From contig NZ_CACZDK010000002.1 of NCBI RefSeq assembly GCF_902779965.1, forward strand, positions 62,001-126,000: a stretch of DNA of 64,000 nt, written 5' to 3'. The notes under the pieces were generated by a model that was given only the letters and a program-made list of their open reading frames with translations, searched no databases and was not told the DNA's origin. Below, piece after piece: positions 3,271-36,229 of the stretch (positions are counted from its first letter, which is position 1; each line of letters opens with the position of its first letter). Source of the DNA: Fibrobacter succinogenes (GTDB taxonomy: Bacteria > Fibrobacterota > Fibrobacteria > Fibrobacterales > Fibrobacteraceae). The position numbers were made by a program, and so were the translations under genes.

Positions 3271-4716
3271 ATGAAACACCTCGGTTTAAAATGTGCTGCT
3301 ATGGCTATCGCTATGGTGGCTTCGGCTCAAGCTTTTACTCTTACGGGTAAAGTAAGTGATGAAAGCGGCAAGGCTATTGATAAAGCCTCTGTTGAACTTT
3401 TAAAAAACGCTCTCAAGACAACGACTGATTCCAAAGGCGAATTCAAAATCGTCAAGGAAGATTCTACAATCGGTATTCGCACTGTCCGTCCGAGGCTCGG
3501 TTACGTGAGCGTGATGAATGGAGTTTTGTCGTATTCGCAGAGCACAAATGAACCTGTCCGCGTGCAGATCTTTGATGCCGTGGGTACTCGTGTCTTGAAC
3601 GAAACTGTTTACGGCTCGGGCACTTTAGATATGCAGTCTGTCGTGCGTTCGCAGGGGGCGTATTTTGCCCGCGTGAGCGTTGGCAGTGCACAGAGCAACT
3701 TCCGTTTCACATCTAATGGTAATTACAAAGCCTCATTCGGTGAAGCTGTTGCTCGTGGTCTTGCGAAAGAAGGCGAAGGCGACGAACTTCGCGTGATTGC
3801 TACGGATTATGATACGTTGACAGTTGCTCTTTCTAATTTGGATACAAACGTTACGCTCAAGCTCAAAAAAACGGTCAAGCAGCCGGAATACGCTTACGGT
3901 TGGGGCCTCAAGAACGATCCGGTTCCTACACGCGGTTGCGGCAAGGATACCAAGCTTGATTACAAGTATCGTGGCGATAAGCCTTACATTGAATTCAAGT
4001 GGAGCAAGGGCACTCGTACCGTGCGTATTGATATCCCGAAGAGCTATGACAAGAATAAACCGTACAAACTCATTTTCGGTATGCAGTGCATGGGAGGCTG
4101 GGCCGGTGGCGTGCAAGACGAAGGCTACTATGGCTTGAAACCGCTTGACAAGAACGAAACTGCAATCTTCGTTGCTCCGGAAGGTAACGGAAACCAAGCT
4201 CCGTGGGACCAAAACGACTACATTCTCTTTGATGAACTTTTGGCCATGCTCGAAGACAGCTTCTGCATTGACTCTTCCCGCGTGTTCTCGACGGGCTTTA
4301 GCTATGGCTCCATGTTCAGTAACGGACTTTCTTGGAACCATCAGGATGTGCTCCGCGCTGTTGCCGTGTACGAAACTGCCGAACGCAACATTTGGCTTCC
4401 GCAGCGTAAGCAGATGGGCATTGGCTGGATGGGCGTGCTTGGCCTCGATGATAACCTCTGCACTCCGGAAATGGGACGCAATGCCCGCGACATTATCTTG
4501 ACGCTCAACTCCGAAGGCGGTAAGGCAAAGAATGAGCGCGCCGAAGAAGCTCAGCGCAATGCCGCTCACAAGTGCTATGACTACACGACTGTCGAAGAAC
4601 GTTTCCCAGTTCGTTGGTGCACTCAGTCCGGTGGCCACATCTGGGACCACAAGGACCCGGGCCAGCAAAAATCTTGGGTGCCTGAAACCACTTGGGATTT
4701 CTTCAGCAAGTTCTAA
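3271..4716 (+). CDS. secreted CE1-type esterase (feruloyl/acetylxylan esterase-like)
   Basis: This 481-residue secreted protein has a signal peptide (residues 1-20, ending ASAQA), then a small beta domain resembling a carboxypeptidase-regulatory/CNA-B module (GKVSDESGKAIDKASVELL), then a linker domain, and from about residue 205 an alpha/beta-hydrolase of the CE1/LpqC polyhydroxybutyrate-depolymerase-like group. The nucleophile elbow is GFSYGS (G-x-S-x-G) near residue 345, and the likely catalytic His is in SGGHIWDH near 455. Enzymes of this type cleave ferulate or acetyl groups from xylan, which suits a plant-wall degrader; the exact substrate is inference. The ATG at 3271 is preceded by AAAAGGAG (3255-3262); a longer frame from 3181 has no ribosome site and would bury the signal peptide. 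A strong terminator follows. Confidence 0.85.
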   Translation: MKHLGLKCAAMAIAMVASAQAFTLTGKVSDESGKAIDKASVELLKNALKTTTDSKGEFKIVKEDSTIGIRTVRPRLGYVSVMNGVLSYSQSTNEPVRVQIFDAVGTRVLNETVYGSGTLDMQSVVRSQGAYFARVSVGSAQSNFRFTSNGNYKASFGEAVARGLAKEGEGDELRVIATDYDTLTVALSNLDTNVTLKLKKTVKQPEYAYGWGLKNDPVPTRGCGKDTKLDYKYRGDKPYIEFKWSKGTRTVRIDIPKSYDKNKPYKLIFGMQCMGGWAGGVQDEGYYGLKPLDKNETAIFVAPEGNGNQAPWDQNDYILFDELLAMLEDSFCIDSSRVFSTGFSYGSMFSNGLSWNHQDVLRAVAVYETAERNIWLPQRKQMGIGWMGVLGLDDNLCTPEMGRNARDIILTLNSEGGKAKNERAEEAQRNAAHKCYDYTTVEERFPVRWCTQSGGHIWDHKDPGQQKSWVPETTWDFFSKF

Positions 4717-4766: not shown

Positions 4767-4825
4767 GTTGAATTGTCCCTCAAAAAAAGCCGCGAAAAAG
4801 CAAAAAATTGAAAAAACGGCGTTTT

Positions 4826-5064
4826 TTACGTAAAATTTTGGCTTTTGGGGCACTTTTTTACGTAAAATTTTAACGTTGTCTGTATTTATTTGGCTGGTTT
4901 CATAATTTTTGCGCTGTATAACGCCCGAAAAATGACGTTAAAATGCTTTTTGAGTGGAAAAATGGGGGCGAAAAATGAAAAATGGTCATTGAAATTCAAG
5001 AATTTACTTACTTTGTACGAAAAATTACGTAAGATTTGGGCTGAAATTAACGTTTCTTACGTAA
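4826..5064. repeat. TTACGTAA four-box element, copy A
   Basis: Four perfect TTACGTAA palindromes start at 4826, 4858, 5025 and 5057, so the spacing is 32, 167 and 32 bp. The second box is followed by AATTTTAACGTTGTCTGTA, which is repeated almost exactly at 35971. The same four-box layout occurs at 35934-36170 with spacing 31, 166 and 32. The inner ~150 bp are different in the two copies. A 45-residue frame (ATG 4962 to stop 5099) overlaps the right half and resembles a frame at the same place in copy B. The element could be a small non-coding RNA gene, a MITE-like element or a protein-binding array; nothing here decides. Confidence 0.6.
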
Positions 5065-5099
5065 AAAAAGAGCAAAAAATCATTTTTTCGAAAATGTAA
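4962..5099 (+). CDS. possible small protein inside TTACGTAA element A
   Basis: A 45-residue frame begins MGAKNEKWSLKFKNLL and ends in KKEQKIIFSKM. The segment NLLTLYEKLRK plus SYVKKEQK aligns with NLVSLYENLRK plus SYVKIEQK read in the equivalent frame of the second element (ATG at 36083). Several of the base differences between the two copies over the 33 nt before and including the third box fall at third codon positions, which hints at coding constraint, but the sample is tiny and both copies are AT-rich. No good ribosome-binding site. The alternative, that this is a non-coding element, is equally likely. Confidence 0.25.
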   Translation: MGAKNEKWSLKFKNLLTLYEKLRKIWAEINVSYVKKEQKIIFSKM

Positions 5100-35873: not shown

Positions 35874-35933
35874 ACAAAATTTAATTTGTTTGCACTGTTC
35901 TAAAAAGTCCTGATTTTCAAAAAATGACGAATT

Positions 35934-36170
35934 TTACGTAAAAATCAAAAAATAGCGGCTGTTTTTACGTAAAATTTTAATGTTGTCTGTAAAAAGTTCT
36001 GAAAAATGCAAGTTTTGATGGCGGTGGCGTTCGTTTTTTCCCGGATAATCCGCTTTTGGTCTGGAAAACGTCCAAAAACCAGATGGGAAAACTTGATTTT
36101 TTAGAAAATTTGGTTAGTTTATATGAAAATTTACGTAAGAAAACGAATTTTTCCTCAATTTCTTACGTAA
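35934..36170. repeat. TTACGTAA four-box element, copy B
   Basis: TTACGTAA palindromes start at 35934, 35965, 36131 and 36163 (spacing 31, 166 and 32), almost the same as copy A (32, 167, 32). Flanking identity is high next to the second box (AATTTTAAYGTTGTCTGTA) and around the right pair (TACGTAAG; TTTCTTACGTAAAAA..GAGCAAAAA), but the middle differs. This copy lies between the 3' ends of two convergent genes, so it is not their promoter. A frame from ATG 36083 reads LYENLRK and SYVKIEQK, as in copy A. Confidence 0.6.
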
Positions 36171-36229
36171 AAATCGAGCAAAAACTCGCAACAACTCATA
36201 AAATCGAGCAAAACCGCTCAAAAGCCGAG

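Follow-up and report, generated by a model that had tools for sequence, protein, structure and literature searches.

Why should four short palindromes in a bacterial genome keep their mutual distances at a second locus where the sequence between them is different? The window analysed here, 64,000 nucleotides of Fibrobacter succinogenes DNA (positions 62001-126000 of contig 2 in a genome of 4.09 Mb, termed G000), contains the box TTACGTAA eight times, against 0.72 occurrences expected from dinucleotide shuffles, none of which reached eight, and all eight belong to two four-box elements, copies A and B (Table 1). The spacings given in a preliminary description of this DNA, 32/167/32 bp in copy A and 31/166/32 bp in copy B, are exact. 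That description had proposed a genome search for spaced box pairs, in which the pattern TTACGTAA-N15..35-TTACGTAA is now found 30 times versus zero times for a reversed control pattern. The pairs of G000 form 16 complete four-box elements and one with two degenerate boxes, about 17 in total, and single boxes outside of elements show no enrichment (102 versus 94 for the control in G000). It had also been considered that the element might have no further copies in any Fibrobacter genome, or that the box might be so frequent as to render its spacing trivial; many Fibrobacter genomes carry copies, and the frequency of the box is too low to account for the match. The elements of G000 are all intergenic, in tandem, convergent and divergent gene contexts, and their neighbours are unrelated genes coding, for example, for an S1-domain protein, RNase D, a tRNA synthetase and an rRNA methyltransferase.

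Anatomy and helical spacing of the unit

Logos derived from 37 oriented elements define a non-coding unit of about 300 bp, which is built from two inverted box pairs (three in some families). In its left half, an outer flank (...GAAAAAATGGCGATTT) is followed by box 1, by a linker of 24 bp whose edges are A-rich and T-rich, by box 2 and by motif A (AATTTTWAYGTTGTMTGTAATA). The middle is occupied by about 100 bp of filler that is different in each copy, and the right half is composed of motif B (TTAnTTTGTAYGAAAWT), box 3, a linker, box 4 and an outer flank mirroring the first, with a model of this half detecting elements throughout the genus. The perfect palindromes originally described are a property of TTACGTAA in this clade but not of the boxes in its relatives, two of which together make up an inverted repeat (TTACGTGA/TCACGTAA, TTACGTCA/TGACGTAA or TTACGGGA/TCCCGTAA). 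Since the boxes of relatives are inverted arms, the true symmetry is that of the inverted pair, and TTACGTAA is a special case with a self-palindromic arm. An TTACGTGA element found in G069 (C3:230624-230910, L164) and in L153 contains an extra pair within its filler that carries the box of another family (TGCTACAA...TTGTAGCA), as if one unit served two families.

Table 1. Coordinates of the two four-box elements in the window and of their parts.
Feature	Position	Strand	Basis
Element copy A, whole unit with conserved outer flanks	4792..5090 (edges approximate)	+	Logos of 37 elements; orthologs in RUG10790 and RUG12208
Copy A, box 1, outer arm of pair 1 (TTACGTAA)	4826..4833	+	
Copy A, box 2, inverted arm of pair 1	4858..4865	-	Inverted orientation visible in relatives
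Copy A, motif A (AATTTTAACGTTGTCTGTATTT), at fixed distance from box 2	4866..4887	+	91% identity between orthologs
Copy A, motif B (TTAnTTTGTAYG type), immediately before box 3, in the direction of motif A	5000..5024	+	
Copy A, box 3, first arm of pair 2; pair 2 begins 199 bp (19 turns) after pair 1	5025..5032	+	
Copy A, box 4, inverted arm of pair 2	5057..5064	-	
Element copy B, whole unit with outer flanks	35900..36196 (edges approximate)	+	
Copy B, box 1	35934..35941	+	
Copy B, box 2	35965..35972	-	
Copy B, motif A (AATTTTAATGTTGTCTGTAAAA)	35973..35994	+	
Copy B, motif B (AATTTGGTTAGTTTATATGAAAATT region)	36106..36130	+	
Copy B, box 3	36131..36138	+	
Copy B, box 4	36163..36170	-	

The suspicion that selection acts on the geometry of the element, and that its boxes lie on one face of the DNA, is supported by the quantisation of distances in the wider collection. 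Among 101 elements, the distance from pair to pair is only ever 168, 177-180, 188-191, 197-201, 209-211, 220-221 or 232 bp, a ladder that corresponds to 16 to 22 turns of 10.5 bp and in which many members are orthologs, so that the independent events are fewer. The 39 elements outside the modal distance show a vector strength R of 0.91 at 10.5 bp, where p-values for helical phase ignore shared ancestry, and 20 quartets of other, unrelated box families yield an R of 0.85, with 10.5 bp being the best among all periods from 6 to 20 bp. Orthologous elements either differ in length by about two helical turns (148 vs 167 bp) or hold it by compensating indels, and whole turns separate the sites also in unrelated copies, as in known looping sites. 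Because the distances between pairs are multiples of 10.5 bp, the spacing indicates that the unit would act as a protein-bridged DNA loop and not as an RNA, and the initial suggestion of a protein-binding site fits with these data.

Between orthologs, identity amounts to 94.6% in the boxes, 91% in motif A and 78% in the filler; at the level of sequence, the units are thus shown to be inherited over long times, with the boxes retained while the filler drifts. In the clade of G025, copies with 74-84% similar filler are located in unrelated flanks and have common ends, GGAGATAATTTT...AAGATCTCC (GGAGAT...ATCTCC). Since some copies have common filler but different flanks, the unit, as judged from this comparison, has been mobile, which suits the earlier proposal of a mobile MITE-like element. 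No consistent target duplication was found beside the GGAGAT ends of these copies. At the locus C_GCAxxG_C_C, we encountered remnants or collapsed single pairs instead of a clean empty site with a target duplication, and the absence of the unit at this place looks like deletion. Solo pairs in L237 and L216 keep both outer flanks and resemble the product of a collapse by recombination of pair 1 with pair 2. A single element with mutated boxes is left in G093.

The partner protein and its boxes

In G000, a gene encoding a protein of 277 residues is located on the opposite strand (C4:145165-145995), flanked by two elements. The same arrangement, with the gene placed between two elements, is found in six genomes (G000, RUG10790, SRR10912533_bin.48, G004, G075 and the distant G025), in the last of which the elements are of the TTACGGGA type and the protein is 47% identical. 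The family of proteins of about 277 residues comprises up to eight paralogs per genome. An agnostic scan, which searches for two inverted 8-mer pairs with no box sequence given, revealed quartets of the same geometry adjacent to many of the divergent paralogs, each with a box of its own (GGCGGTGA, GGCGGTGG, TTGGGGAT, TGGGTACC, TGCTACCA, and further TGCTACTA, GGTTACTA, TAGGACTA, YGTACAGG, GGCGGTGR and others). Applied blind to 20 paralog loci not seen before, the scan detected a quartet beside ten in its strict and beside 13 in its relaxed version; it had no match in 148 kb of control DNA and none in shuffles, and in the window it returned the two known elements only. A comparison of the protein tree with the box sequences reveals that box type tracks protein phylogeny. 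The TGCTACNA family, which was checked genome-wide, is present in multiple copies (up to 22 pairs) in genomes encoding its protein, often as units in which three pairs are spaced by 84/95/179 bp (8, 9 and 17 turns); it is absent from G000, which is devoid of that protein. Several independent box families coexist per genome. No close protein of the TTACG type was found in G001 and G101, two incomplete MAGs with many elements; G069, G071 and G014 are without this protein yet have two to three remaining elements with nearly intact boxes. Near several elements, at L085 6807-7679, L093 5048-5881 and L196 8323-9273, we also observed genes that resemble the paralogous TIGR02147 family of Fibrobacter.

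The protein of about 277 residues has no match among Pfam, NCBIfam or PHROG families. Its last 115 or so residues match the end of the PDC-S68 proteins, candidate defence proteins of PADLOC, with an E-value of 3.5e-23, but those models extend over about 1,220 residues, whereas in the partner protein the homologous domain is joined to a different N-terminal part of about 150 residues and the protein is linked to DNA units. A structure model (mean pLDDT 87.6, pTM 0.61) contains an N-terminal helix-strand-helix part and a mixed alpha/beta C-terminal domain. Its fold matches are weak and include several PD-(D/E)XK enzymes, with none in the PDB reaching an E-value of 0.001. The residues E168, D204 and E219-x-H, the latter a non-canonical motif, are predicted to be catalytic and are invariant in 30 paralogs, and the C-terminal domain is predicted to be PD-(D/E)XK-like. 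At G000:C20:52206-52484, an open frame of about 1,218 residues contains a stretch related to the C-terminal domain that the partner protein shares with PDC-S68.

Proposed system and alternatives

The reading that we favour, with a probability of about 0.6, assigns the element as the DNA half of a two-component system, the partner of which would be the protein of about 277 residues. The unit, its helical phase, its dispersal, the maintenance of its boxes and their co-divergence with the protein can all be read directly from the genomes, and from these features we infer protein binding and looping, together with either DNA cleavage by a nuclease activity or copying. In the proposed mechanism, one or two subunits of the protein would bind to the boxes of each three-turn pair, and the proteins on both pairs would come into contact by looping the DNA between them, about 16-22 turns in length, which is why the pairs would have to face the same side of the helix. 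At that complex, the PD-(D/E)XK-like C-terminal domain may act on DNA, most likely by copying or moving the unit. Copies that consist of the unit only would be non-autonomous passengers, and a loss of the protein would lead to the loss or decay of copies.

Such a system would be analogous to REPINs served by RAYT proteins, but double-stranded and with another enzyme fold. Both comprise short non-coding intergenic units of inverted repeats with many copies per genome and long vertical persistence, whose sequence type is matched to a cognate protein gene and whose copies are more numerous where that gene is present. RAYT belongs to the Y1 (HUH) tyrosine transposases and has single-stranded hairpins as its substrate (PMC8049555), whereas the protein of the Fibrobacter unit is unrelated and PD-(D/E)XK-like by prediction, and the spacing of its sites follows the double helix. 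As in REPINs, two short inverted repeats enclose a variable spacer in the unit, but this arrangement is present two or three times per unit, with whole turns between the pairs. The Y1_Tnp domain (PF01797) is absent from the element carriers G000, G075, G062, G025 and G014 and present in genomes without elements, and an assignment to REPIN-RAYT was rejected.

It is also conceivable, although unlikely, that the protein is a sequence-specific regulator which bridges the pairs and governs promoters located at motifs A and B, that of its own gene among them, and whose nuclease-like domain is no longer catalytic. Such a role would account for the occurrence of both motifs, which resemble a -10 element (TAnTTT), at fixed places beside the pairs of several unrelated box families, and for the location of many units directly 5' of the gene for this protein. 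Looping repressors such as LacI and GalR typically form loops of 150-240 bp in which whole turns separate the sites, and they share with the unit paired palindromic or inverted sites at a distance of about three turns and/or whole-turn loops, a likeness that extends to paired NrdR boxes. However, the Fibrobacter units are dedicated and dispersed instead of being operators of one gene, their box is not enriched outside of units and the fold of the protein differs from that of these repressors. The -10 element enriched in Fibrobacter is CTATnTTTG, to which motif B shows no match, and upstream regions of genes show no enrichment of the exact motif, which led us to reject the view that motifs A and B are housekeeping promoters of the ordinary kind. 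At the G000 locus and several others, both motifs are directed away from the gene or lie antisense to it, units adjoin genes of every orientation, and the invariance of the predicted catalytic residues is at odds with a loss of catalysis.

A role of the units as dispersed anchor points of a dedicated DNA-bridging protein, in chromosome organisation or segregation, appears distinctly improbable. Phased inverted repeats can serve partition, as in P1 parS and SopC, and a set of 15-25 copies that are dispersed between genes and strongly conserved in their binding geometry would be in line with such a function, but the variation from 0 to about 25 copies between complete genomes of one genus and the presence of several independent box families per genome would hardly be tolerable if it were essential.

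Very improbable is a dead MITE family of an ordinary transposase, in which the conservation of boxes would be a by-product of recent spread. Bacterial MITEs are likewise non-coding, have a size of about 300 bp, inverted ends and dispersed copies with sharp edges, and the inverted terminal sequences of the unit and the copies of the G025 clade, which share their interior in different flanks, conform to this description. Still, no parent transposase with the same ends was found in the loci examined, no target duplication was seen and the protein beside the units does not belong to the known transposases. In most copies the filler is unalignable, yet none of the four boxes is lost and helical phase is preserved, the latter in orthologous copies by compensating indels, and the internal four-box geometry of the unit, unlike that of MITEs, appears to be under selection.

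A small RNA or RNA hairpin, in line with the paired RNA ends initially considered, is hardly credible. Steps of 10.5 bp that persist across diverged filler without pairing are characteristic of B-DNA in its double-stranded form. Each pair could fold into a hairpin with arms of 8-12 bp; many linkers lack self-complementarity. An Rfam search retrieved only a neighbouring tRNA and no match to the element.

Occurrence outside the genus

Within the phylum, the protein is found in three genera of one family, and in another genus, G165, no quartet was found beside its two full-length copies. A scan of 84,980 species for the DNA pattern identified Fibrobacter MAGs and the Clostridiales lineage UBA1779, besides apparently unrelated single matches. 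In UBA1779 (L051, L056, L059, L065, L075), TTACGTAA-like boxes form arrays of up to about 1 kb with alternating distances of 29 and 33 bp and with filler that is unrelated between contigs, and a homolog of the partner protein (33% identity, E 1e-33) is encoded between two TTACGTAA arrays (L051 2678-3424). As the box was the search criterion, its sharing was selected for, which does not apply to the presence of the protein.

We consider it likely that these elements belong to a previously undescribed class of protein-plus-repeat systems in Fibrobacterota and at least one Clostridiales lineage, in which each PD-(D/E)XK-like paralog would maintain its own population of phased multi-box units and in which specificity and box would co-diverge into many independent families, several per genome. 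A search of the open-access literature, with subscription journals outside its scope, retrieved nothing relevant on Fibrobacter repeats, PDC-S68 or bacterial TTACGTAA repeats. If correct, the lifestyle of a protein that maintains short intergenic repeats as a population, best known from REPIN-RAYT, would have been invented independently with a different enzyme fold and with a double-helix geometry that is plainly readable in the genome sequence. The approximately 20 natural pairs of protein and box constitute a ready data set for a code of DNA recognition, the ladder of 16-22 turns a natural experiment on DNA looping, and the rule of phased inverted quartets adjoining the gene of the partner protein finds new families whose box sequence is not known beforehand.

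A viral or plasmid origin was rejected, as full-geometry patterns in viral contigs led to unrelated periodic repeats or to nothing, and protein searches of plasmids and phages to domain-only matches and one gut contig. A full-length homolog (31% identity) is encoded on L294 (MT839528.1), an unannotated human-gut contig labelled as phage, where nine GTTGC/GCAAC motifs are found within 379 bp after the homolog gene (3834-4212; 0.74 expected at equal base frequencies). Finally, in L060 and L077, MAGs of Lachnospiraceae/Clostridium, TTACGTAA boxes surround a TTGACA/TATTAT promoter and a ribosome-binding site and are probably an unrelated repressor operator.
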